Source: an uncultured delta proteobacterium (GTDB taxonomy: Bacteria; Desulfobacterota; Syntrophia; Syntrophales; Smithellaceae). From it: a DNA stretch of 58,366 nucleotides. The DNA is taken from contig CAIVQG010000033.1 of assembly GCA_903907985.1 (NCBI GenBank), positions 1 through 58,366 of the forward strand, written 5' to 3'. Shown here one piece after another: positions 28,647-52,143 of the stretch. The notes beneath the pieces were generated by a model, which did no database searches, was not told where the DNA came from, and saw only the letters and a program-made list of their open reading frames with translations. Position 1 is the first letter of the stretch, and each line of letters begins with the position of its first letter. Position numbers and translations under genes: made by a program.

Positions 28647-28692
28647 CCATCTATGGATGAGGCCATGGCTTCATCCTATAGATGGTTTTTTA
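28647..28692. terminator. Bidirectional terminator between convergent genes
   Basis: A stem of about 18 bp (from CCATCTATGGATGA to TCATCCTATAGATGG, one bulge) with a small loop, ending in seven T residues on the plus strand. It closes the rightward catabolic run and lies at the 3' end of the activator gene on the minus strand. Confidence 0.85.
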
Positions 28693-31600
28693 TGCTTCCG
28701 GCCCGCCGTGGCTTGCACCTTTAGGCCTGTGGATACCTAGCCTATTCATGCGGAAGGCCAGCGTGGACGGGGGAATGTTGAGGAGTTCCGCCGCTCCGCC
28801 TTTGCCCCTTACCTTCCAGTTCGTTTGTTGCAGCGCCCACAGGATGTGCCGGCGTTCATTTTCCATAAGGGTCATCCCATCCCTGTCGGTGGAGTAGTCT
28901 TTTTGTGTTGATCCGAGGTCGGGTACCCGGAAGAGGGGGCCGGTATTGAGGATCGTTCCTCTTTCGATGATATTCTCCAACTCCCGGACGTTTCCCGGCC
29001 AGTCATAGTGGAGCAGTTTTTCTATTTCAGCATTGGGAATCTTGGAAAAATTCTTTCCCCGTTTCTGGGAGTAGATCTTGAGAAAATAATAGGCCAGGAG
29101 GGGAATGTCTCCTGTTCTTTCCCGCAGGGGCGGCACGTGGATGGGAAAGACGGCAAGACGATAATAGAGATCTGCCCGGAATTTCTGTGTCTTGACATCC
29201 TTTTCCAGATTGCGGTTGGTGGCCACCACAAGACGGAAGTCGGAACGCAGTGTTTCGGTTCCGCCAACCCGCTCAAACTCACCGTTTTGCAGAACCCGCA
29301 GCAGACGAACCTGAATGTCCTGGCTGATCTCGCCGATTTCATCGAGGAAAAGGGTGCCGCCGTTGGCCAGTTCAAAACGTCCCAGACGCCTTTGTGTAGC
29401 GCCGGTGAAGGAGCCCTTTTCATGACCGAACAGCTCGCTGGGGATGAGACTCTCCGGCAGGGCGCTGCAGTTCACCTTGATAAAAGGTTTGTCCTTCCGG
29501 CGGCTATGGCGATGGATGGCCCTGGCTACCAGTTCCTTGCCGGAGCCGGTTTCACCTATGATCATCACAGTGGCGTCGGTTTCCGTCACCTGGTCGACCT
29601 GAGAAAGCACATGCTTGATCTCCGGGCTTTCCCCGACAATGTCTTCAAAATGAAGTGTCTGCAGGTGTTCTTCTTTGTAATAGAGGGTTTCCTCGCTGAG
29701 ATTCTGATTCAATCGCCTGATCTCTTCGTAGGCCTTGACATTATCCAGCGCAAATGCGGCCAGCGCGGCGAAATAAGAGAGTAGTTCCAGGTCGGATTCC
29801 CGAAAGGCACTGCTGAGCAGGCGATTGTCGTGATAGAGAACTCCCACGGTTTTGCCGCGGAGGATCATGGGAACGCAAATGCGGGAGCGGATGGCCGAAG
29901 AAGCAACGGAATTTTCGTTTTCCTCCGTGCCGAGAATACGGCCCGTTCCCTTTGACGCAACTTCCTTGATTAGTTTCATGGAAGAGGAAAACCCGTCATT
30001 TCCAATCTGTTCCGTGGTGAGGTTCTTGGAGGCCCTCAACAATAGCTTTGGAAGATGTTTATCGTCCTCGAGCAGGAAGATGGCGCCCCTCTCGGCGCCG
30101 GTAATTCTGTTTAATGTAGACAGGATGTGCTGGACGAGGTCTCTGTGGTCCTGAATGGTGACAACCTCCTGTCCGAGGGTCAATATCTCCTTGAGGAGGT
30201 TTTCGTTAAGCGGCCGGTCTTTGATGAGAGCCCGCAGGTCATCCGGTACCAGCGTTTCATTGATGACATCGAGTACCTTGGTGGCAATGAGGGTCAGTTC
30301 CTTAGCCCTGTTATTGTCGCCCAGAAAGAGGTACTGCCGGGCGAGTTCCAGTCGCGATTTGGCCAGCTCAATCTCGCTGCCGGATTCTTCCAGCCACTTG
30401 ATGGAATTCTCCAGCGACGAGATGATTTTCTCCCGGGACTCCCCTGACATTTGCCGGAGGATGGCCTCGTAGCGGTAAGCCACGCCCTTGAGGAGGATGT
30501 TTTTCCCGCGGATCATAGCCTGAATCTCTTTTTCAATAGAGAGTCCCTCCACGGAAGGAAGTTCTCCCATTTTTATGGCCAGGCAGAGTTCCAAAAGGTA
30601 AGCATAGAGATAGACTGTTGTCTGGACCCTGCGGCTCTGTTGCAGGAAGCTCTGGAGGCATTTCGTCGCCTGTTTTTTTTCTCCCTTCAGATAATAGGCA
30701 TAAGCGAGGGACGTTTGCACCGAGATCCATACCCAGTCATTATGGGCCTCCTGCGCCTCCCGCGCCGACCCTTCCAGAAACACGATGGCCTCGTCGATAC
30801 GGCCGATGTCGAGGAGAATGACACCTATATTGCCCTCCGCGTAGGCGGTCAGGTAAACATCACCTTTGTCGAGCCCATGGGTGCGCAGGGCGTCGAGCAT
30901 CCCCAGTCCCTGGGTGATCTGGCCGGTCTGGGCGTAACAGTAGCCGACCGTGATAACGGCCAGGAGGGGAAAACCGCCCTGAGGATATCTTTCGATATCC
31001 GGTACTGATTTTTCGTAGATCCGAATTGCCTCCCGGAAGCGTCCCTGCCAGAAGAGAAAAAAGGTGCTGAAGTTGGTGGCCACCAGCATCAACTCGGGGT
31101 CACCTATTTCATGGGCCAAGGACCAGCCCTCTTCAAAAAATTTCAGGGCACTGGTGTATCGCGAGCGGAGCCATTCATTTTTGGCCATGTGCATCTTCAG
31201 CAAAGCTTGCAGGGCTTTCATGTCCCACTTCTCGGCACGCTTGAGGGCCGATTCCAGAATGGAAAGTACTTTTGTTGTGTCGTGTCTCGCCGTCGAAATT
31301 TTGGAGTATTTAATGGCGGTTTCGCTGAAGAGGCGATCTTCTTCCTCGCCGTTTAAACAGCAAAGATCATCGAGGGCTTTGCTGTAGCACTGCAGGGCAT
31401 GTTCGGCCTGAAAGGTCTTGCGGTGGAGATCGCCTGCTTTGATCAAGAAACGGCACCTTTCCACATCGTTGGCAATATGGACGAGATGATGGGCGACGGC
31501 ATGGGCCTTCTGTTCATCGTCGGGGAGCTGGCGCATCAGAATGTCGGCTATGTGTCCATGAAGCATCTTCTCCTCGGGTTCCGGAAGAAGGCAGATGAAT

Positions 31601-31869
31601 TTTTCCCGTCTTTTTAAATCTTTAAAAATATAAGAACCGGGGGTTTTTTTCAGCAGGATGCCCTCAGTGACGCTTTTTTCCAACTGAGAGATAATCTGGG
31701 ACGGTTTCTTTTCCGAAAGAAGATCAACAAGACAGTCGATAGAGAACTCCCCGTTAAACAAGGCGGCGATGGCCAGCAGGCGCTTGTCATCGTCTAGCTT
31801 GGAATTGCAATTGGCAGTAGACACGCGTTCCTCCGTTGATTCCATTTTACTTATTCCATTCTTCATCAT
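28690..31869 (-). CDS. Sigma-54-dependent transcriptional activator with TPR-rich region, GAF, AAA+ and Fis HTH
   Basis: A 1059-residue enhancer-binding protein. N-terminal roughly 1-560 is helical with TPR-like repeats (as in MalT/LuxR-type regulators). A GAF sensor spans about 580-720. The AAA+ domain has Walker A GETGSGKE near 773, the sigma-54 contact loop GSFTGA near 819 (GAFTGA in most relatives), Walker B GGTLFLDEIGE and the arginine-finger region FRADLYYRLAVF. A Fis-type HTH occupies the last 50 residues. There is no receiver domain, so control is by ligand or protein binding, probably a CoA ester or free acid at GAF/TPR (inference). It lies next to the catabolic genes, whose two -24/-12 promoters share a dyad; it is the obvious candidate regulator. 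The start codon among several close ATGs is uncertain. Confidence 0.9.
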   Translation of the reverse strand: MMKNGISKMESTEERVSTANCNSKLDDDKRLLAIAALFNGEFSIDCLVDLLSEKKPSQIISQLEKSVTEGILLKKTPGSYIFKDLKRREKFICLLPEPEEKMLHGHIADILMRQLPDDEQKAHAVAHHLVHIANDVERCRFLIKAGDLHRKTFQAEHALQCYSKALDDLCCLNGEEEDRLFSETAIKYSKISTARHDTTKVLSILESALKRAEKWDMKALQALLKMHMAKNEWLRSRYTSALKFFEEGWSLAHEIGDPELMLVATNFSTFFLFWQGRFREAIRIYEKSVPDIERYPQGGFPLLAVITVGYCYAQTGQITQGLGMLDALRTHGLDKGDVYLTAYAEGNIGVILLDIGRIDEAIVFLEGSAREAQEAHNDWVWISVQTSLAYAYYLKGEKKQATKCLQSFLQQSRRVQTTVYLYAYLLELCLAIKMGELPSVEGLSIEKEIQAMIRGKNILLKGVAYRYEAILRQMSGESREKIISSLENSIKWLEESGSEIELAKSRLELARQYLFLGDNNRAKELTLIATKVLDVINETLVPDDLRALIKDRPLNENLLKEILTLGQEVVTIQDHRDLVQHILSTLNRITGAERGAIFLLEDDKHLPKLLLRASKNLTTEQIGNDGFSSSMKLIKEVASKGTGRILGTEENENSVASSAIRSRICVPMILRGKTVGVLYHDNRLLSSAFRESDLELLSYFAALAAFALDNVKAYEEIRRLNQNLSEETLYYKEEHLQTLHFEDIVGESPEIKHVLSQVDQVTETDATVMIIGETGSGKELVARAIHRHSRRKDKPFIKVNCSALPESLIPSELFGHEKGSFTGATQRRLGRFELANGGTLFLDEIGEISQDIQVRLLRVLQNGEFERVGGTETLRSDFRLVVATNRNLEKDVKTQKFRADLYYRLAVFPIHVPPLRERTGDIPLLAYYFLKIYSQKRGKNFSKIPNAEIEKLLHYDWPGNVRELENIIERGTILNTGPLFRVPDLGSTQKDYSTDRDGMTLMENERRHILWALQQTNWKVRGKGGAAELLNIPPSTLAFRMNRLGIHRPKGASHGGPEA

Positions 31870-31956: not shown

Positions 31957-32024
31957 GTCGAATATAAGACATGTGTTTCACCGGCGATGGGCATTAACAA
32001 TGTGGAAAAATGTGGGAAAAGTGA

Positions 32025-32053
32025 TTGACAGGCAAATGGAACTTACCTATATT
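32025..32053 (+). promoter_or_regulatory. Sigma-70 promoter of chemoreceptor gene
   Basis: TTGACA at 32025-32030, a 17-bp spacer and TATATT at 32048-32053, 42 nt before the ATG. The spacer carries ACTTACC just before the -10. Promoters at 33677 and 38342 share this extended pattern (ATTGACAG..AAA ... ACTT). Confidence 0.75.
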
Positions 32054-32095: not shown

Positions 32096-33478
32096 ATGAC
32101 AGGCAAGGGAAACATCTGGCAGCGAATGCGGGAATCCATCATCGGGCGTTACGGCAACAGCGATTATCTTACCCAGCAACGTGCCTGGTATATGTACATT
32201 TTTTTGAGTTTTGCGTTTGTGCTTTTTCTCGGTCTGGCCGTTACTCTTTTTGCAGTCGATCCGGTAAAAGCTAAATTCTCTTCACCTATTCTGATTGTGG
32301 CGTCGGTAATGGGGCTGCTGGCGATATATCTGGTCAGGGCCGGGAAATACAGCTTTGCGGCAAATTTTATTTTGATCTTCCAGTTGCTGGCCGTGGCAGG
32401 AAGTTTTTACGCCAAGACTAAGTCACCGACGATCATTGAGGGATTCACGGCGACATCGTACTTTTTTTTCATCACCATCGCCTTTGCCACACTTTTTTGC
32501 GAAAGGAAAATGATTGTCGTGACGATGGTCTGGACTGTTATTGTGGAGGTGGCCTATTTCCTGGCGATTAAACCACTCATGAGCCCGGATATCCTGGAAA
32601 TCATCACCCGTTCCTTCGCCAACAGCATCGTCTGTCTAACCATCACCGGGCTTCTTTCCTTTATGATTATCACATCGATGAGAAAGGCCAATGTCCGGCT
32701 CATCGATTCCGTTGCCGATGTGAGAACAGCCTCGCAAAAGCTCGACGATATCTCCAGCGTTATGGACTCGGCGAGCCAGAGTCTGGCGAATGGTTCGTCA
32801 ACCCAGGCGACCGCAATGGAAGAGACGGCATCCATGCTGAAGGAAATTTCCGAAAAGACGAAAGCTAATCGGACGGTCGTTGATAAGGCCATTAATCTCA
32901 TGGCCAGCGCCAGCGCGGTTATCTCGCAGACAAACCAGTCGCTGACAAATCTCCGATCATCCATGAATGAAGTCAACGATGCCAGTGAAAAAACGGTGCG
33001 GGTCATCAAAACCATTGACTCGATTGCTTTTCAGACCAATCTGCTCGCCTTGAACGCGGCCGTGGAAGCGGCACGGGCGGGAGAAGCGGGGGCGGGATTC
33101 GCCGTTGTTGCCGAGGAGGTGCGGTCTCTGGCTCGTAAATCGGCAGAAGCGTCAAAAAATTCGCAGGAAATCATTTCCAATAATATCAATAATATCAAGA
33201 AAAGTTCCGATCTGGTCGTCAGTTCGTATGAAGCTTTTTCCATGTTTTCGCAGGTCTCGAGCCAACTGGACGACTACTTGAAGGAAATTAACGCATCTTC
33301 CCGGGAGCAGTCCGACGGCATCATGGAGATTGAAAAAGCTGTCGAAGAAGTGAACCAAATTATTCAGGGGAATGCCGCAAGTTCAGAAGAGGCCGCAGCA
33401 GTGTCTACCGAACTGACAACTATCGCCGATAGTGTAGGTGACTTCGTGGAACATCTCGATAAACTGGTAAATGCCTGA
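32096..33478 (+). CDS. Methyl-accepting chemotaxis protein with polytopic membrane sensor
   Basis: Chemoreceptor of 460 residues from ATG 32096 (AGGAGG upstream); the frame is open to 31973, but that would cover the promoter. About six hydrophobic helices fill residues 32-192 without a periplasmic loop large enough for a ligand domain, so sensing would be within the membrane or through a partner protein. The signalling domain contains the CheA/CheW-binding hairpin tip [19 protein letters not shown], flanked by coiled coil and methylation helices. No HAMP domain and no C-terminal CheR-tethering pentapeptide are seen. It is divergent from the sigma-54 activator and upstream of the Cache array. 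Confidence 0.88.
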
Positions 33479-33542: not shown

Positions 33543-33866
33543 CTCTATTCCATATGCCGGAATATTCTCTTCCCTTTCCATAAAATATTGAAGTAACTAT
33601 ATATTTAGTATGTTTGACATTACGAAACGCCTCTCCCTTATTAAGGGAATCTTTATGTTGTCGGTAAAAAAAGTCATTGACAGAAAAATCGAACTTCCTT
33701 ATGGTACAGTTAGTAGAAGTAATGCAAATATTCCTATGCGCATTGGCTTCGATCAGTTTTTTCTGGTATACCGGAAAGGAAGGATTAGTGATCAGCCATC
33801 AAATCACTGCGTTCATCGGCAACCGTCAGGTTTAATAACAATTAAAAATGTTATGGAGGTGAAGTT
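33543..33866. other. Leader region of the Cache array
   Basis: Holds the promoter at 33677-33705, an untranslated leader of about 150 nt and the ribosome site GGAGGTGA before 33867. An open frame across 33610-33870 would run through the promoter and is not regarded as a gene. Confidence 0.5.
33677..33705 (+). promoter_or_regulatory. Sigma-70 promoter of the Cache array
   Basis: TTGACA at 33677-33682, 17-bp spacer and TATGGT at 33700-33705. The flanks AGTCATTGACAGAAAAA and ACTTCC match those of the promoters at 32025 and 38342. The leader to the first Cache gene is about 155 nt, long enough for RNA-level control. Confidence 0.65.
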
Positions 33867-34316
33867 ATGAAAAAAGTTTTGGTGGTTGTTATTATTTGTC
33901 TGCTTACAGTCGGTTTTGTTTGGGCTGCGGAAAAGGGAGCGACCAAGGATGCCCAGGACCTGGTTGACAAAGCCGCTGCCTTCTACAAGTCCAACGGAGC
34001 TGAAAAAACACTGGCGGAGATCAATAACCCTAAAGGGCAATTTATCAAAGGCGACGTCTATGTCTTTATCTGGGGCACTGACTATGTAGTGAAGGCCCAT
34101 CCCACAAATGCGAAGCTCGTAGGAAAAAACCTAAAAGAATTGAAGGATACGGACGGCAAGGCATTTGTCTTTGATGGCGTCGAATTGGCCAAGGCGAAAG
34201 GTTCCGGATGGGTCGATTACAAGTACACGAATCCGGTATCCAAAAAGATCGAGGCAAAAACAACCTATGTGAAAAAAGTAGACGACTTGGTTTTTGCTTG
34301 CGGGATATACAAATAA
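33867..34316 (+). CDS. Secreted single-Cache protein, copy 1
   Basis: A 149-residue periplasmic sensor-type domain without a membrane anchor. A signal peptide (MKKVLVVVIICLL..., cleavage after VWA near residue 21) is followed by one sCache_2-type domain: GAT..AQDLVDKAAAFY helix, NPKGQFIKGDVYVFI, KAHPTNAKLVGKN, SGWVDYKYTNP and the end VFACGIYK. In chemoreceptors this domain binds small organic ligands. This copy keeps the family-typical HPTN loop and is the most divergent of the five tandem copies. GGAGGTGA precedes ATG. Role as a soluble ligand-binding partner of the flanking chemoreceptors is an inference. Confidence 0.85.
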   Translation: MKKVLVVVIICLLTVGFVWAAEKGATKDAQDLVDKAAAFYKSNGAEKTLAEINNPKGQFIKGDVYVFIWGTDYVVKAHPTNAKLVGKNLKELKDTDGKAFVFDGVELAKAKGSGWVDYKYTNPVSKKIEAKTTYVKKVDDLVFACGIYK

Positions 34317-34345
34317 AACAACGAGCGAAGGAAGGGGATGAAGAA

Positions 34346-34825
34346 ATGAAAAAGAAGAAAGAAATAATCAGCAGTGCAAGGATTTTTATCATCACAATGA
34401 TCGGTTGTCTATTGATAGCGAGTGCTGCCTTCGCGGCGGAAAAGGGAACGGCCAAAGAGGCCCAGGACCTGGTGGCGAAAGCCGTTGCTTATTACAAGGC
34501 CGAGGGACAGGAGAGGGCTTTTGCGTCCATTAACGATCCCAAGGGCCAGTTCACCAAAAAAGATCTTTATGTTTTTGTTTTCGACTTCAATGTGGTCTGC
34601 CTGGCCCACGGGGCCAACAAGGCGCTGGTTGGCAAGAACTTCTCTGAGCTCAAAGATTCCACTGGAAAACCGTTCGCGAAAGAAATAGTTGATGGCGCCA
34701 AGAGCAAAGGCAAGGGGTGGGTTGATTATAACTGGACCAATCCGCAAACCAAAAAGATCGAGGCCAAGTCATCTTATTATCAAAAGGATGGTGATTTGGT
34801 TTTCACCTGCGGGATCTACAAATAG
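34346..34825 (+). CDS. Secreted single-Cache protein, copy 2
   Basis: 159 residues from ATG 34346; ten residues longer at the N-terminus than the others, with a polar MKKKKEIISSAR lead before the hydrophobic signal core and cleavage after AFA. Domain marks: AKEAQDLVAKAVAYYKAEG, NDPKGQFTKKDLYVFVFDFN, AHGANKALVGKN, KGWVDYNWTNP, FTCGIYK. The binding-pocket loop is HGAN, as in copies 3-5, instead of HPTN. It begins 29 nt after copy 1 with ribosome site GGAAGGGGA. Confidence 0.85.
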   Translation: MKKKKEIISSARIFIITMIGCLLIASAAFAAEKGTAKEAQDLVAKAVAYYKAEGQERAFASINDPKGQFTKKDLYVFVFDFNVVCLAHGANKALVGKNFSELKDSTGKPFAKEIVDGAKSKGKGWVDYNWTNPQTKKIEAKSSYYQKDGDLVFTCGIYK

Positions 34826-34872
34826 AGGTTCAAAACTATGTGGCCGGCCGGACTTCCTGTTCTTCCGGCTGT
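34826..34872 (+). repeat. Repeated post-gene hairpin block, unit 1
   Basis: After the stop of Cache copy 2 comes a block with GGCCGGCCGGAC; GCCGGA and TCCGGC form a stem-loop. Closely related blocks follow copies 3 and 4 at 35385 and 36022, beginning GATTTGAAA/GGTTTGAAA and continuing CATCATG then CGGCCGGAC. They indicate that gene plus flank was duplicated as one unit. Confidence 0.55.
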
Positions 34873-34934
34873 TAGCAATAGCCTAGATATGATCCTGTAT
34901 GACCTGTATAATATTTAGAAAGGAGCAAAGAGAC

Positions 34935-35384
34935 ATGAAAAAAATTTTGATGGCGGCACTTATTTGTTTGATGACTGTTAGTTTTGCTTTTGCTCAGGAA
35001 AAGGGAACGGCCAAGGAGGCCCAGGATCTGGTAACGAAAGCCATTGCCTATTACAAGGCCGAGGGCAAGGACAAGGCATTTGCGGCCATTAATGACCCCA
35101 AGGGCCAGTTTACCAAAAAAGATCTTTATGTTTATGTCGCAGATCTCAATATTGTCGTTTTTGCCCATGGCGCCAATAAGGCTCTGGTTGGCAAGAACTT
35201 GTATGAACTCAAAGATTCCAATGGAAAACCGTTCGCGAAAGAAATAGCCGACGGCGCCAAGAGCAAAGGCAAAGGGTGGGTTGATTATAGCTGGACAAAT
35301 CCGACAACCAAAAAGATCGAGGCCAAGTCATCCTATTTCCAACGGGAAGGGGATCTCGTCTTCGTCTGCGGGTTCTACAAATAG
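34935..35384 (+). CDS. Secreted single-Cache protein, copy 3
   Basis: 149 residues from ATG 34935 (AAAGGAG upstream). Signal peptide MKKILMAALICLMTVSFAFA, then the Cache domain with GTAKEAQDLVTKAIAYY, NDPKGQFTKKDLYVYVADLN, AHGANKALVGKN, GWVDYSWTNP, ending VFVCGFYK. The strand after KKDLYVY reads VADLNIVVF, whereas copies 2, 4 and 5 read VFDFN..CL, so the pocket differs. Preceded by a 109-nt spacer whose last part (GATCCTGTATGACC ... AATATT) recurs before copy 5. Confidence 0.87.
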   Translation: MKKILMAALICLMTVSFAFAQEKGTAKEAQDLVTKAIAYYKAEGKDKAFAAINDPKGQFTKKDLYVYVADLNIVVFAHGANKALVGKNLYELKDSNGKPFAKEIADGAKSKGKGWVDYSWTNPTTKKIEAKSSYFQREGDLVFVCGFYK

Positions 35385-35421
35385 CCGATTTGAAACCATC
35401 ATGGCCGGCCGGACCCCGGTC
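35385..35421 (+). repeat. Repeated post-gene hairpin block, unit 2
   Basis: Second copy of the block: CGATTTGAAACCATCATG followed by GGCCGGCCGGACCCCGGTCC, where GGAC and GTCC form a small stem. It begins directly after the stop codon of Cache copy 3. Confidence 0.55.
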
Positions 35422-35571
35422 CATCGAGTATCTCACAATATCCGGGACATTGTCCTGTATTCTCTGCACACTCCTGATCTGCAGGGGAGAAGACACATAG
35501 GGACCTTTGCTTCCGGGTTAAAATATATTTATTGATTTTAAAAAACTAAAACAAAAGGAGAAAAGAAGAAA

Positions 35572-36021
35572 ATGAAAAAAATTTTGATGGCGGTTATTAT
35601 TTGTTTGCTTACGGCGAGTTTTGTTTTCGCTGCGGAAAAGGGAACGGCCAAGGATGCCCAGGATCTGGTGGCGAAAGCAGTTGCCTATTATAAGGCCGAG
35701 GGTAAGGACAAGGCATTTGCGGCCATTAATGACCCCAAAGGTCAGTTCGCCAAGAAGGATCTTTATGTTTTTGTTTTCGACTTCAATACCGTCTGTCTGG
35801 CCCATGGTGCTAACAAAGCGCTGGTCGGTAAGAATCTTAAAGAACTCAAGGACAGCAATGGAAAACAATTCATGAATGAAATGACCCAAGATGCCAAAAC
35901 CAAAGGCAAAGGATGGGTTGATTATCAATGGACAAACCCGACAACTAAAAAGATCGAAGCGAAGTCATCCTATTATCAAAAGGAAGGCGATATTTACTTC
36001 GGTTGTGGTATCTACAAATAA
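35572..36021 (+). CDS. Secreted single-Cache protein, copy 4
   Basis: 149 residues. Signal peptide MKKILMAVIICLLTASFVFA, then GTAKDAQDLVAKAVAYY, NDPKGQFAKKDLYVFVFDFN, AHGANKALVGKN, GWVDYQWTNP, ending YFGCGIYK. It is preceded by the longest spacer of the array (187 nt), AT-rich near its end, with ribosome site AAAAGGAG. Nearest relative is copy 5. Confidence 0.87.
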   Translation: MKKILMAVIICLLTASFVFAAEKGTAKDAQDLVAKAVAYYKAEGKDKAFAAINDPKGQFAKKDLYVFVFDFNTVCLAHGANKALVGKNLKELKDSNGKQFMNEMTQDAKTKGKGWVDYQWTNPTTKKIEAKSSYYQKEGDIYFGCGIYK

Positions 36022-36060
36022 CCGGTTTGAAAACATCATGATCGGCCGGACTCCGGTCCG
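36022..36060 (+). repeat. Repeated post-gene hairpin block, unit 3
   Basis: Third copy of the block, starting at the stop of Cache copy 4: CCGGTTTGAAAACATCATG, then CGGCCGGACTCCGGTCCG. CGGAC and GTCCG form a 5-bp stem with a TCCG loop. Confidence 0.55.
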
Positions 36061-36129
36061 CTGAGCAGCAGGCAACAGTTGGAAGTGATCCCGTATGGCC
36101 AGTGCAATATTAAAAAGGAGGGAAGCTGT

Positions 36130-36579
36130 ATGAAAAAATTTTTGATGGTGGTTATTATTTGTTTGCTTTCAGCCAGTTTTGTTTTCGCTCAGGAAAAGGG
36201 AACGGCCAAGGAGGCCCAGGACTTGGTGGCGAAAGCCATTGCCTACTACAAGGCCGAGGGCAAGGACAAGGCTTTTGCGGCCATTAACGATTCCAAAGGT
36301 CAGTTCACCAAAAATGATCTTTATGTCTTTGTTTTCGACTTCAACTCTGTCTGCCTGGCCCACGGGGCCAACAAGGCGCTTATTGGCAAGAACTTAAAGG
36401 AACTCAAAGACAGCAATGGAAAGCGGTTCATCGATGAAATGTCCCAAGCGGCCAAAACCAAAGGCAAGGGTTGGATTGATTATACCTGGACAAACCCGAC
36501 AAACAAAAAGATCGAGCCCAAGTCATCCTATTACGTCAAAGAAGGGGATATGTACTTTGGCTGCGGGATCTACAAATAG
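36130..36579 (+). CDS. Secreted single-Cache protein, copy 5
   Basis: 149 residues from ATG 36130 (AAGGAGG upstream). Signal peptide MKKFLMVVIICLLSASFVFA, then GTAKEAQDLVAKAIAYY, NDSKGQFTKNDLYVFVFDFN, AHGANKALIGKN, GWIDYTWTNP, ending YFGCGIYK. The otherwise constant NDPKG is NDSKG here. It is the last copy and is followed at 36650 by a chemoreceptor gene. Confidence 0.87.
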   Translation: MKKFLMVVIICLLSASFVFAQEKGTAKEAQDLVAKAIAYYKAEGKDKAFAAINDSKGQFTKNDLYVFVFDFNSVCLAHGANKALIGKNLKELKDSNGKRFIDEMSQAAKTKGKGWIDYTWTNPTNKKIEPKSSYYVKEGDMYFGCGIYK

Positions 36580-36649: not shown

Positions 36650-38233
36650 ATGAGAAGAATTATCAAAAACCTGAAAATGTCACACAAATTAATCCTTACG
36701 CCCATTACTGCCGTTTTCTTTTTATTGTTACTTGCCAGCATTACCTACTATGGGCTCAGCGGCCAGCAGAAGGCCATTGATGACATCTTCAACAACCGTT
36801 TCAAGGGTTATCAGAATAGTTCGGAAATCGTTAAAAACATTGGCAATGTTCATGCCAACCTCTACAAGGTCATCAGTTGGGCCGGGGCAAACATCGGAGC
36901 GGATAAGACCGAAGCTCTGTCCAAGGAACAGCGCAGCGCCCTGGAAAAAACATTAGGTAATGTTAATGATATTCTGAAATCCGCTGCCCTTGCTCCGGAC
37001 GAGAAAAAGCTTTATCAGGACATCCTGCAGCAATTGAAGGACTATCAGTCTCCGGCTGTCGGAATACTGGATATGGCCACGACTGATTTGAATGCTGCAA
37101 CCATGTTCATGGCCAGTACCGATGAAAAATATCAGGTGCTCAACAAGACCCTGGGACAGCTTATGGATCTTGAAACCAGGCTCAGCAAAGAAAAATATGA
37201 TGCGGCAACGGCTAGTTCTGCCAGTGTCCAAAAAATATTTGTGGTTCTGATAATCATTGCCGTGGGATTGTTTGTCCTTATCAACATTTTCATGGCCCGC
37301 ATTATAACCCAGTCCATCATGCAAACGATTGCTGTTGTTCACAATGTGGCTGATGGTGATCTCACCCAAAATATTGATGTAGATTCGACGGACGAGATGG
37401 GTGAACTGGCCAGCTCCGTGAACACCATGCAGAGTAAAATGGGAGAAGCAGTTGGTCAGTCTTTGAGTATTGCGCAGGTTTTGGCCGATGCTTCCTCCCG
37501 GCAGGCGGCTGCCATCGAGCAAACATCGGCGTCTCTTGATGAAATGGCGTCCATGACCAAACGCAACGCCGGCAGCACCAACGAGGCCAACAACCTGATG
37601 AGCACGGCGAAACAGGCTATTCAAAAGGCTAATGTTTCCATGGCTGATCTTACAGTCTCCATGAAGCAGATCGCCTCGGCGAGTGAACAGACCCAGAAAA
37701 TAGTAAAAAGTATCGACGAGATTGCCTTCCAGACCAACCTGCTGGCTTTGAATGCCGCCGTGGAAGCGGCACGTGCCGGTGAGGCCGGCGCTGGATTCGC
37801 CGTAGTTGCCGATGAGGTCCGGAATCTGGCCATGCGCGCCACCGAGGCGGCCCGGAATACCTCGGAATTGATCGACAACATCGCCGGCAAGGTCAAAGAC
37901 GGAGATAATCTGGTAACTATAACCAATGATGTCTTTCAGCAGGTGACAACGAGTTCGGAGAAGGTTGTCCAACTGACGGCGGAGATTGCCTCCGCTTCTC
38001 AGGAACAGTCTCAGGGGATCGATCAGATCAATCGTGCCGTGGCCGAGATGAATCAGGTCACCCAGCAAAATGCGGCCAGCGCTGAAGAACTGACCTCCAT
38101 TATGTCGATGTTCAAGACAAACTATGAGGGAGAACATAAGACCGGGGCATCAAAAGTGAAAAAGTTAACAGCTTTTTCCGGTCGGGGAAATGCCTCCGAA
38201 AAGCTGATTCCGATGAATGACGATAACTTTTAA
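36650..38233 (+). CDS. Methyl-accepting chemotaxis protein with periplasmic four-helix-bundle domain
   Basis: Transmembrane chemoreceptor of 527 residues. TM1 is near residues 12-32, a mostly helical periplasmic domain covers about 33-190 (4HB_MCP-like, with YYGLSGQQKAIDDIF and repeated amphipathic helices), TM2 near 193-215, then a HAMP domain with DGDLTQNIDVDSTDEMGEL. The signalling domain has the hairpin tip [19 protein letters not shown] and EVRNLAMRATEAARN. GAGGGG precedes the ATG. Next to five secreted Cache proteins, its helical periplasmic domain is a candidate docking site for them, as known for some binding-protein-dependent receptors (inference). Confidence 0.9.
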   Translation: MRRIIKNLKMSHKLILTPITAVFFLLLLASITYYGLSGQQKAIDDIFNNRFKGYQNSSEIVKNIGNVHANLYKVISWAGANIGADKTEALSKEQRSALEKTLGNVNDILKSAALAPDEKKLYQDILQQLKDYQSPAVGILDMATTDLNAATMFMASTDEKYQVLNKTLGQLMDLETRLSKEKYDAATASSASVQKIFVVLIIIAVGLFVLINIFMARIITQSIMQTIAVVHNVADGDLTQNIDVDSTDEMGELASSVNTMQSKMGEAVGQSLSIAQVLADASSRQAAAIEQTSASLDEMASMTKRNAGSTNEANNLMSTAKQAIQKANVSMADLTVSMKQIASASEQTQKIVKSIDEIAFQTNLLALNAAVEAARAGEAGAGFAVVADEVRNLAMRATEAARNTSELIDNIAGKVKDGDNLVTITNDVFQQVTTSSEKVVQLTAEIASASQEQSQGIDQINRAVAEMNQVTQQNAASAEELTSIMSMFKTNYEGEHKTGASKVKKLTAFSGRGNASEKLIPMNDDNF

Positions 38234-38295: not shown

Positions 38296-38341
38296 CGTGA
38301 TGTCATATAACAATTTTCCGGTATCTTATGGAAAAAAGTAA

Positions 38342-38370
38342 TTGACAGAAAAACGCTACTTCCCTATATT
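38342..38370 (+). promoter_or_regulatory. Sigma-70 promoter of the DapB-like gene
   Basis: TTGACA at 38342-38347, 17-bp spacer and TATATT at 38365-38370. The flanking AAAAAGTAATTGACAGAAAAA and ACTTCCC repeat those of the promoters at 32025 and 33677, linking this gene to the sensory block. The leader to 38485 is about 108 nt. Confidence 0.75.
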
Positions 38371-38484: not shown

Positions 38485-39525
38485 ATGTACCGCGTCATTC
38501 AATGTGCAACCGGATCAATTGGGCGCTCCACTTTGCGCCGCATTATCGATCATCCCGATCTGGAATTGGTAGGTCTTTTCGTTTACGGAAACAAGGCGGG
38601 GCTTGATGCCGGCCAGATAGCCAAGCGTCCTTCAACCGGCGTTATTGCCACGAGCAAGATGGATGAAATTCTCTCGCTGGAAGCCGACGTCGTTATTCAT
38701 ACCTCCCGTATCACCATACCCTATGCCAAGCAGAATGCCGAAGTTGAACAGTTCCTCGCGTCAGGGAAAAACGTCATCTCTGTTAACGGGTTTTTCTATC
38801 CGGAAGTCCATGGCGAAGCATATGCCGGGCCTTTGCGCGCGGCCTGCGAACGCGGAGGCAGTACGCTGGCCGGCGTGGGCCTCAATCCGGGATTCATCGC
38901 CGAACGTATTGCCCTGGTAATGTCGGGGCTTTGTGCCCAGGTTGACTATCTTGGTTCTTTCGAGATGGTGGACGGATCATATATTGATGCGCCGGATTTT
39001 GTTTTCGGTACAATGGGCTTTGGCACTGATCCCTCCGTGACCGACATCACGAAAGGACCGCTCGCGCAGCTTTATTTCGATCTTTATATCGAAACTTTTG
39101 CTTACGCCGCCGAGGCCATGGGGACGAGTATCGCGTCGATCAAGCCCGACCATCGCCTGACGCTCGCTCCGGAGGATATGAAAATCGCCGCCGGAACCAT
39201 CCGTCAGGGGACCGTTGCCGCTACGGAGTGGCGCTGGAATGCCGAATTTGCCGATGGACGCAGGATGACCCACTCCCTGCTCTGGACAGCTTCGCCACGG
39301 CTGCACGGAGATGATGACCCGGTCCACTGGCGCATCGAAATTAAGGGACGTCCTAATGTTCACTTGTCCTTCAGTCTGGAAGATCCTGATCCCGGGGCTC
39401 CTCCGTCACGCGCCGGAGCTGATGCAACAGCGGCTGCCGTAATTCGGGCCATCCCGGATGTATGCGCGGCCAAACCCGGCTTCTTCCGCTTTGCGCCACT
39501 GGCCCCTTTCCGGGAGAGGTTTTAG
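38485..39525 (+). CDS. DapB-like NAD(P)-dependent oxidoreductase
   Basis: A 346-residue Rossmann-fold protein related to dihydrodipicolinate reductase and 2,4-diaminopentanoate dehydrogenase. The nucleotide motif is QCATGSIGRSTLRRI near residues 6-20, with an N-terminal fold of about 140 residues (VVIHTSRI, NVISVNGF, GVGLNPGF) followed by an unassigned C-terminal catalytic part. The substrate is unknown; DapB-like proteins of this length occur near acyl-CoA and amine catabolic genes. GGAGGGG lies before the ATG. It is followed by an acyl-CoA ligase 98 bp downstream. Confidence 0.75.
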   Translation: MYRVIQCATGSIGRSTLRRIIDHPDLELVGLFVYGNKAGLDAGQIAKRPSTGVIATSKMDEILSLEADVVIHTSRITIPYAKQNAEVEQFLASGKNVISVNGFFYPEVHGEAYAGPLRAACERGGSTLAGVGLNPGFIAERIALVMSGLCAQVDYLGSFEMVDGSYIDAPDFVFGTMGFGTDPSVTDITKGPLAQLYFDLYIETFAYAAEAMGTSIASIKPDHRLTLAPEDMKIAAGTIRQGTVAATEWRWNAEFADGRRMTHSLLWTASPRLHGDDDPVHWRIEIKGRPNVHLSFSLEDPDPGAPPSRAGADATAAAVIRAIPDVCAAKPGFFRFAPLAPFRERF

Positions 39526-50115: not shown

Positions 50116-50390
50116 GGAACTCGCAAATAAACTACATCCCAAAGCTGTTAATCCCACGGCCTTGCGGCCAGCATCTTCCCATGATTTTTCACTGCTTCCA
50201 ATGGGTGTTAATCTTACTAAATAGATGAACTTAATATTTTAGAGATTATTTCTTTCTTCCTAAGCGTTGGGCTGACTATTTTCAGTTCTATCGTAGATTT
50301 TTAACGAAAATAATGATAATTAAAATTAATATGCAATTTCGAAAATTACAACCTCGGTTGACATTCTATTATTAGAATAGTGTAACCGTT
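50116..50390. other. Upstream region of chemoreceptor 3
   Basis: AT-rich and without genes. TTGACA at 50358-50363 lies 32 nt before the ribosome site; the expected -10 (TGTAAC) is poor. A small dyad ATTCT ... AGAAT overlaps this region and could be an operator. No terminator is clear after the crotonase gene. Confidence 0.4.
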
Positions 50391-50403
50391 GAGGAGGATG
50401 GAT

Positions 50404-52143
50404 ATGAGGATTACATTATTTAAAAGGGTTCTCGGTTCGATTGCGATTACGGCTGTCCTGGTTGGAGGCGTCGTTTATTGGACAAGCTTTTTCATGATCA
50501 GTCATGCTGTCTATGGACATAGTCAGTCGGAGATAAAAAAACTGGCGGATCTGGTCCAGGGACATATGGACGATCTGAAGGATAAATCGGTAAATACCGC
50601 CGCCATTATGGCGGAAAGTCCGGAGTTGGTCATGGCGATGGAGAAAGGTGACAATGCCGCCGTACAAAGAATATGCAGGGACTACCTTAAGGCCAGCCGG
50701 TTATCCCTTATCACTATTGCCGACAAGGACGGCAATGTCGTGGGCAGGGGGCACTCCGACAAGTCCGGAGACAGTGTCCTGAATCAGGTCAACGTAAAGA
50801 AGGCCCTTGCGGGGCAGGCATCGACAGGCATCGAGGAGGGCACCTTGGTCAAATTATCCCTGCGGGTGGGAAATCCCATCCGTAGGGGAAACCTTGTGGT
50901 CGGTACCGTAACTTCGGGATTTGATCTCTCGGCGGAGTCCTTTGTGGACGAAGTAAAGAAAAACTTCGGTATAGAATGCACGATATTCCAAGGAGATACG
51001 CGGGTATCGACTACTATTATGAAAGATGGCAAGCGGGTCATAGGGACGAAGATGGACAACCCTAAGGTGATAGAAACGGTTATGAAAGGAGGGGGGATGT
51101 TCCTGAACGTCAACAAGATTTTGGGAAGGAATTACGACACCGCCTATTGGCCCCTCAAAGATGTAGATGGAAAAATCATCGGTATGTTTTTTATCGGAAA
51201 GGATCGTGACTTTATCGAACAGGCAATGAAAAACACGATTATTCCCGCCTTTCTCGCCGCTTTGCTCATCGGGTTCATCATGGTAGCCATCAACTTTATT
51301 TCAGTCCGTTCGCTCGTCAATACCCTGAAACGGGCGATCCAGGGCCTCACCGCTTCACACGAACAGGTTGCTGCCGCTTCCGCCTTAGTAGCATCGACCA
51401 GTCAGGAATTAGCCGAGGGGACTTCGACACAGGCCGCATCCCTGGAAGAGACTTCTTCATCCATGGAAGAAATGTCTTCCATGACTAAGCAGAATGCCGA
51501 CAATGCAGCGCAGGCCAAGGTGATGATGCAAGACGCCAAAAATATTGTGGAGAAAGTCAGCGGCCATATGGACGAAATGAGCAAATCCATTGCCGAAATT
51601 ACCAAAACCAGTGAAGAGACCTCCAAGATCATAAAGACCATTGACGAGATCGCTTTCCAGACCAATCTGCTGGCCCTGAACGCGGCAGTGGAAGCGGCTC
51701 GGGCGGGCGAAGCCGGAGCAGGTTTTGCGGTTGTCGCCGATGAGGTCAGAAACCTGGCACTGCGGGCGGCGGAGGCGGCCAAAAACACAAGCCAGCTTAT
51801 TGAGAACACGATCAAGGCGGTAGAAAATGGCAATGAGCTGACCATAGCGACCCAGGCCGCCGTTAAGGATAACGCGGAGATCTCGGTGAAGATAAGCCAG
51901 TTGGTAGAAGAGATTGCCACGGCTTCCCAGGAGCAGGCCCACGGCATAGCTCAGGTGAGTACGACGGTCGCAAACATGGACAAGGTCACACAGCAGCAGG
52001 CGGCCAATGCCGAGGAATCAGCAAGCGCCGCGGAAGAGATGAACGCACAAGCGGCGGAGATGAAGGTATTTGTAACAGATATTATTGCCGTCGTTGATGG
52101 GGCCCGCAACGATACAGGCTTTAACAGCACCGGGCGGAATTGA
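50404..52143 (+). CDS. Methyl-accepting chemotaxis protein with periplasmic Cache domain
   Basis: Chemoreceptor of 579 residues from ATG 50404 (GAGGAGG at 50391-50397; earlier in-frame codons overlap this site). TM1 is near residues 7-27. A Cache-type sensor (about 35-270) contains [16 protein letters not shown] and [19 protein letters not shown]2 is near 277-299. HAMP is not obvious; coiled coil leads to the tip [19 protein letters not shown]. It is the third receptor of the window and the only one with its own large Cache domain. Confidence 0.9.

Follow-up and report, generated by a model that had tools for sequence, protein, structure and literature searches.

A five-gene array of putatively exported single-Cache proteins beside a helical-bundle chemoreceptor suggests possible detached sensor subunits

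A stretch of 58,366 nucleotides (nt) from an uncultured delta proteobacterium (contig CAIVQG010000033.1; from here: the window) carries five intact tandem genes for sCache_2 proteins with predicted export at positions 33867–36579 of the forward strand, placed between two genes for methyl-accepting chemotaxis proteins (MCPs), here called MCP1 and MCP2. We report a directional pairing of related standalone Cache genes with MCP genes across the phylum. The best-supported reading, which we consider somewhat more probable than its negation, is a split chemoreceptor with free periplasmic Cache subunits. Evenly balanced, in our judgement, is the broader proposal of a widespread two-gene design, in which a secreted single-Cache protein would give ligand binding to a separate helical-bundle MCP and would signal by docking and not through a membrane helix of its own. 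The window would then present one receptor with five sensors whose pocket walls differ, and this five-fold expansion would be its unusual part.

All five proteins matched Pfam sCache_2 (PF17200) with E-values of 8e-15 to 7e-22 and 55.5–78.4 bits, compared with a curated cut-off of 25, and the Pfam scan found no output domain in any of them. Counted from the probable ATG, copies 1 to 5 comprise 149, 159, 149, 149 and 149 codons; the starts of copies 2, 3 and 5 were chosen from ribosome-binding sites, the mechanical list of open reading frames (ORFs) having longer frames. Successive Cache genes are separated by 29, 109, 187 and 108 nt, and copy 5 lies 70 nt ahead of the MCP2 gene. A repeat finder recovered a 300-nt and a 128-nt block in five copies each at ≥60% identity, with spacings of 509, 559, 637 and 558. 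All copies open with MKK, followed by a hydrophobic stretch and then an AxA-like end, and a simple hydropathy scan detected no membrane segment past this signal stretch; judged from these sequence features, all five proteins are probably exported. An initial annotation of the window had described five tandem secreted single-Cache genes, which ORFs, repeats, sCache_2 matches and hydropathy bear out, and the hydropathy scan beyond the signal stretch likewise agrees with its claim that a membrane anchor is lacking. In the available part of Upadhyay et al. 2016 (PMC4822843), a membrane-helix rule has the extracellular Cache domain flanked by two transmembrane helices, within a protein that also carries an output domain; the array copies show neither feature.

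Residue identity is 85% between copies 4 and 5 and 56% between copies 1 and 5. In eight of the ten copy pairs the ratio of non-synonymous to synonymous substitution rates (dN/dS) of the mature parts was 0.09–0.34, while dS was saturated in the other two, and the copies appear to be kept by selection. A quick tree of 136 Cache domains, built on few columns, grouped copies 2 and 3 as sisters (support 95) and copy 5 with the MCP-adjacent copy of another locus, L013 (support 96). Copies 2–5 fall inside a clade of ten rows (support 100), nine of them MCP-linked; the tenth, L015, meets the contig end 249 bases further on. Copy 1 clusters apart from them with two Caches that belong to a different family within the phylum (support 92); the array thus combines closer relatives with one divergent member.

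The mature part of copy 4, the only copy modelled, was predicted by AlphaFold2 with a mean predicted local distance difference test score (pLDDT) of 96.5 as a single-Cache fold of 129 residues that fills the mature protein. According to Foldseek, its closest solved structures are the integral sensor domains 4EXO/2QHK, 4K08, 5G4Y and TlpB, with E-values of 5e-10 to 3e-9 and VIA Z scores of 15.7–16.7 for 4EXO, 4K08, 2QHK and 5G4Y, and Z scores of 12.7–13.0 for TlpB. A profile search of the PDB sequences returned the same set of structures. In PscD, as far as the available part of Brewster et al. 2016 (PMC5062169) describes it, propionate is held by Tyr90, His103, Tyr143 and Lys156 and sandwiched between Trp92 and Trp145, with Phe126 as the back wall. 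We placed the PscD pocket residues on the five copies by profile alignment, mapped by hand. The four polar residues are identical in all copies; because they are kept, the ligand is probably a carboxylate. The pocket wall varies: in the order of copies 1 to 5, F, F, Y, F and F stand at the position of Trp92, W, F, A, F and F at Asn94, V, A, A, M and I at Phe126, G, I, I, M and M at Met129, and Y, W, W, W and W at Trp145. Ligand size is not readable from these substitutions, because the Phe126 position is smaller in every copy, yet Asn94 is replaced by a large aromatic residue in four of the five. The motifs named in the initial annotation are all present, HPTN in copy 1 (a form also found in PscD), HGAN in copies 2–5 and VADLN in copy 3. 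Its suggestion that the copies could be interchangeable or bind different ligands has one basis, the pocket-wall differences.

Neither flanking receptor carries a Cache domain in the Pfam scan, as had been claimed initially. In MCP1, MCPsignal was the only match above cut-off and no periplasmic sensor domain was found by the scan. The structure model of the MCP2 N-terminus contains four long helices (residues 10–79, 84–110, 116–142 and 147–234; pLDDT 83.7, predicted template-modelling score 0.59), which fits its Pfam 4HB_MCP_1 match; the periplasmic domain covers approximately residues 33–195. The genome contains eight MCP matches, one of them a 133-residue fragment and three inside the window, together with CheW-domain genes and two flagellin matches; one CheW-domain gene sits in a 736-residue frame, the size of a CheA. 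A role in chemotaxis is therefore possible.

For the comparison across genomes, a profile of 33 relatives (A2) was run against 395 genomes of the phylum, 159 of which had matches at an E-value of 1e-12. One hundred regions were hand-picked from the strongest standalone matches, with E-values to about 1e-30, so that weak members are under-sampled; the contig-edge match G217:C82 was excluded. Together with the window they form 102 gene clusters, which represent 54 genera and 69 genomes; clusters within one genome are not independent. Removed from the counts were repeat loci (L001–L012, L017, L021, L022, L024, L027, L036, L037, L039–L041, L044) and three short loci that are not repeats (L042, L043, L045). 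MCPs were called by a profile built on the collected loci. Two further loci, L097 and L061, look like true pairs missed by the overlap filter; they stand outside the 102-cluster counts and are labelled as linked in the tree.

A same-strand MCP was the next ORF of ≥200 amino acids downstream in 36 of 96 clusters (37.5%) and upstream in 12 of 99 (12.1%), compared with a background of 7 of 286 (2.4%) at positions 3–6 on both sides (Fisher p 6e-18 downstream, 5e-4 upstream). Only one of the 96 had an opposite-strand MCP directly downstream, and MCPs make up about 0.3% of genes in 22 of the sampled genomes, assuming 0.9 genes per kb. Linkage on either side was found for 42 of the 102 clusters, and for 10 of the 13 nearest to the window's family (≥200 bits). 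When all loci were pooled, an MCP lay directly downstream in 45 of 125 unique clusters, including two separate pairs in Pannonibacter, one in an Oxalobacteraceae and one in a Nitrospirota bin. Azospirillum sp. B510 (L233) has a single pair, and on an Azospirillum plasmid the gene order is AMP-binding protein, Cache, MCP. Arrays of two or more copies have an MCP downstream in six of eight cases (L013, L047, L073, L094, L103 and the window). The comparison of genomes proposed with the initial annotation yielded a co-occurrence of Cache and chemoreceptor genes in the form of directional pairing; at least one linked cluster was present in 29 of the 54 genera and 37 of the 69 genomes. Among the non-MCP downstream neighbours, 62 of 68 were scanned and gave 109 Pfam families, none in more than three members; the six genes outside that scan belong to L087, L091, L092, L104, L116 and L141, the first five of which have an MCP upstream. 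Since the downstream MCP, often a four-helix bundle, is the commoner neighbour, it is doubtful that the array serves both flanking receptors.

Of the 45 paired MCPs, 44 match MCPsignal, 25 match 4HB_MCP_1, 5 TarH, 3 HBM and 1 CHASE3 (counts may overlap), the remainder having no sensor-domain match. None of the 45 matched a Cache model at E 0.001, compared with at least 8 of 29 MCPs that do not adjoin a standalone Cache gene (p 3e-4, calculated on this lower bound). To this control the window's genome contributed five MCPs; the other 24, the best by signalling-domain score, came from 19 of the 22 genomes searched. MCPs beside a standalone Cache gene were omitted (L167, L170, L187, L188, L199, L204, L212), as were L192, which adjoins the Cache gene of L097, the 133-residue fragment L173 and L176, a second cut of L172. 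Three of the rows retained in the control are close to a Cache cluster but do not adjoin it on that cluster's strand: L202 lies 1.2 kb upstream, L196 is divergent, and the third is L205. A control drawn from the same loci, in which at least 10 of 25 proteins had a Cache match, was discarded, 11 of the 25 stemming from loci chosen for their Cache-bearing MCPs (L032, L034, L035).

Cache and receptor sequences also diverge together. Across 43 pairs, Cache distances correlated with those of the MCP periplasmic parts (r 0.62), also when the receptor's own signalling domain was controlled for (0.59, permutation p 0.0005), compared with 0.14 between Cache and signalling domain. A finer cut set the periplasmic part at predicted helices, used the whole cytoplasmic part as control and removed near-copies, leaving 35 of 41 pairs; the partial correlation was then 0.54 (p 0.0005) for Cache and periplasmic part and 0.06 (p 0.16) for Cache and cytoplasmic part given the periplasmic one. 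The periplasmic parts of the 41 paired MCPs fall into two size classes, 138–167 and 266–302 residues, plus one of 399. In the long class (16 pairs) the partial correlation reached 0.69 (p 0.0005). Co-divergence is therefore clear overall, weak in the window's own, short class, and it supports contact between the partners without proving it, because fast- and slow-evolving regions differ in information.

Under the split-receptor reading, each Cache protein would be exported, fold as a single Cache domain and bind a small carboxylate through the conserved Tyr/His/Tyr/Lys set. Either the ligand-bound or the free form would dock on the helical-bundle periplasmic domain of MCP2, which would relay the signal to the CheA pathway, and the array would supply this one receptor with several sensor variants. 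Ligand class, docking, signalling and a division of labour between the copies are inferred steps of this scheme.

Several observations weigh against it. No same-strand MCP stands beside 60 of the 102 clusters (59%); 6 of the 102 have no downstream ORF in the stretch examined. Two of the eight arrays (L084, L115) lack an adjoining MCP. At E 1e-20, 13 of the 159 family-bearing genomes show no MCP, several of them with strong standalone matches (G005, G066, G082, G127, G200, G226, G242, G262, G274, G282, G321, G357, G360). The initial annotation had held that arrays found regularly without receptors would speak against it, and these numbers show this in part, next to the six arrays with an MCP. 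In the short periplasmic class that includes the window (18 pairs), the partial correlation was 0.26 (p 0.051) and that of the cytoplasmic part 0.18 (p 0.008); a cruder cut (23 pairs) gave 0.36 (p 0.011). Matches to 4HB_MCP_1 are not significantly enriched among paired MCPs (25 of 45 versus 11 of 29 unpaired, p 0.16); the contrast between the two groups is the absence of Cache. In the class of Noviherbaspirillum, where 13 of 321 genomes had matches at 1e-30, a same-strand MCP stood beside one of 19 standalone loci within 1.5 kb on each side; these loci are 14 in other genomes and 5 in Noviherbaspirillum, and two (L241, L250) end within about 300 bases downstream.

The fusions of the family count on both sides of the balance: they connect it to chemoreceptors, which speaks for the reading, but do not show periplasmic docking. 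In ten MCPs a domain of this Cache family forms the C-terminus, behind the signalling domain (Table 1; L151 has a run of N in its signalling part). This domain should be cytoplasmic, because two to three hydrophobic segments lie at the N-terminus and none in between. In L066 and L071, a three-helix MCP without C-terminal Cache is followed 30 nt on by a separate exported Cache gene and then by an MCP with a short periplasmic part. A candidate Rosetta-stone fusion with a four-helix bundle ahead of Cache in L149, L150 and L155 was rejected, hhalign against the paired MCP bundles giving a probability of 0.5%.

Linked and unlinked clades exist, as the linked label requires 27 changes on the Cache tree versus about 45 for shuffled labels. 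One standalone-Cache clade without adjoining MCP (family f39: L098, L107, L110, L117, L120) comes from five genomes, four of them MCP-less at 1e-20 (G170 has an MCP). At the genome level, MCPs were absent from 73 of 236 family-free versus 13 of 159 family-bearing genomes (odds ratio 5, lists compared by eye), a comparison confounded by family matches that sit inside MCPs. In Indioceanicola, a Cache gene lies beside esterase and type II secretion genes. The plasmid records annotate such proteins as 'cache domain-containing protein', and no stated role was found for them.

The unlinked clusters and MCP-less genomes would fit a rival reading in which the proteins are independent periplasmic carboxylate-binding or buffering proteins, such as transport helpers or scavengers, found near MCPs through co-regulated uptake, metabolism and taxis. 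On two Azospirillum plasmids (L235, L236) the standalone gene lies between a pyrroloquinoline quinone (PQQ) alcohol dehydrogenase/PedF block and an ATP-binding cassette (ABC) transporter, and L154 (4962–5951) encodes an exported protein in which this Cache domain is fused with a substrate-binding domain of the ABC type (PF04392). We nevertheless regard this alternative as unlikely: no transporter occurs among the recurrent downstream families (first 25 of the 109 families, 62 genes scanned), and the bias towards MCPs, the absence of Cache matches from the paired MCPs and the periplasmic co-divergence are not expected under it. Less probable still is that the proteins are general accessory sensors docking in trans on MCPs, histidine kinases and others, so that the array would serve distant receptors in addition to MCP2. 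The family does occur as an integral periplasmic domain in large PAS-containing sensor proteins (L155, L149) as well as C-terminally in MCPs, it is present in genomes showing no MCP, and just one of the five copies adjoins MCP2; against this, kinases are rare next to the MCP-free genes (HisKA in 3 of 62), and the clade of copies 2–5 is MCP-linked apart from the row at a contig end.

We give very little credence to a relic, that is, a sensor part severed from the MCP of a Cache receptor and multiplied without function. Upadhyay et al. 2016 (PMC4822843), the available part of which presents SMP_2 as a cut-off sensor, is cited in its favour, but the five copies are intact, with low dN/dS wherever computable and kept pocket residues, and MCP2 shows no gap but a full bundle of its own. 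What stands of the initial proposal, a detached Cache domain as ligand-binding subunit of a Cache-less receptor, is backed by gene pairing, by the absence of Cache from the paired MCPs and by periplasmic co-divergence; it does not extend to the many clusters and some genomes without MCP.

The window's features are compiled in Table 1. MCP1 probably starts at ATG 32096 and not at GTG 31973, because GGAGG precedes the ATG and the GTG falls ahead of a promoter-like element. This element occurs three times in the window in near-identical form and had no match in 100 shuffles, though the pattern was written from these same three sites; four weaker matches exist elsewhere in the genome. A shared promoter defining a chemotaxis regulon was considered and set aside; at one weaker match (C39) the next forward gene appeared FKBP-like by eye. 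Divergent from MCP1, a large TPR-GAF-sigma54 activator resembling NifA/FhlA is encoded at 28690–31869 on the reverse strand, and the third MCP of the window lies at 50389–52143.

Table 1. Coordinates of the array, its flanking receptors, the promoter-like elements and the MCPs with a C-terminal Cache domain
Feature	Position	Strand	Basis or remark
Promoter-like element 1 of 3, TTGACA-N17-TATATT with conserved spacer	32018..32050	+	before MCP1
MCP1, six hydrophobic segments and MCPsignal	32096..33478	+	Pfam MCPsignal E 6.8e-38; hydropathy
Promoter-like element 2 of 3	33670..33702	+	upstream of Cache array
sCache copy 1	33867..34316	+	Pfam sCache_2 match; divergent copy
sCache copy 2	34346..34825	+	Pfam sCache_2 match
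sCache copy 3	34935..35384	+	Pfam sCache_2 match
sCache copy 4	35572..36021	+	Pfam sCache_2 match; AlphaFold2 model of mature part, pLDDT 96.5
sCache copy 5	36130..36579	+	Pfam sCache_2 match; 70 nt ahead of MCP2
MCP2, 4HB_MCP_1, HAMP and MCPsignal; presumed partner	36650..38233	+	Pfam
Promoter-like element 3 of 3	38335..38367	+	upstream of dehydrogenase-like gene 38485-39525
C-terminal-Cache MCP	L140:11227-12594		
C-terminal-Cache MCP	L146:4484-6082		
C-terminal-Cache MCP	L147:2852-4453		
C-terminal-Cache MCP	L148:4676-6337		
C-terminal-Cache MCP	L151:872-1984		
C-terminal-Cache MCP	L152:1434-2789		
C-terminal-Cache MCP	L153:3657-5018		
C-terminal-Cache MCP	L156:3852-5285		
C-terminal-Cache MCP	L157:3827-5278		
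C-terminal-Cache MCP	L158:5246-6694		

The literature searched, which covers few subscription papers, yielded no description of a chemoreceptor paired with a secreted Cache protein. In a survey of solute-binding proteins from 49 model bacteria and 45 Pfam families (PMC9602780), the main text does not contain PF17200 and has 'Cache' once, in a reference title. If the split-receptor reading is true, the pairing of soluble Cache proteins with MCPs that lack Cache would break both rules drawn from Upadhyay et al., as represented by the portion used here, including the membrane-helix rule. The ligands of some 4HB chemoreceptors would then become testable via a small soluble partner. Detachable sensors would also offer a receptor a simple route, through gene duplication, to new or altered ligands.

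Maltose-binding protein with Tar, and likewise TorT–TorS, combine a soluble binding protein with a helical-bundle receptor. The arrangement in the window is, by prediction, like this binding-protein-dependent chemotaxis in having a soluble exported binding protein and a helical-bundle receptor, but the binding protein consists of one Cache domain of about 129 residues instead of the two-lobed solute-binding-protein fold, and its gene lies with that of the MCP and is present five times. The folds of VtrA/VtrC and ToxR/ToxS differ from those of the array proteins. According to the parts of PMC9214523 drawn on here, these co-component systems are similar in that two proteins jointly form a periplasmic sensing unit, but they are virulence regulators and not chemoreceptors. 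Activation of receptors by solute-binding proteins is described in the available part of PMC9600550. In Rhodopseudomonas, a stand-alone Cache gene and the gene of a ligand-gated channel were predicted to form one operon (Tasneem et al. 2004, PMC549065); here, too, a free Cache was proposed from gene order to work with a separate receptor, but the passages available concern one bacterium and an ion-channel partner, and describe no MCP pairing or array. The fold is shared with the integral sCache_2 chemoreceptors PscD (5G4Y/5G4Z), Adeh_3718 (4K08), V. parahaemolyticus 2QHK/4EXO and TlpB, and PscD, as far as described in the part of the source used, has its carboxylate-binding residues in common with the array copies. 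Whereas their domain is part of membrane receptors, that of the array is free and predicted to be exported.

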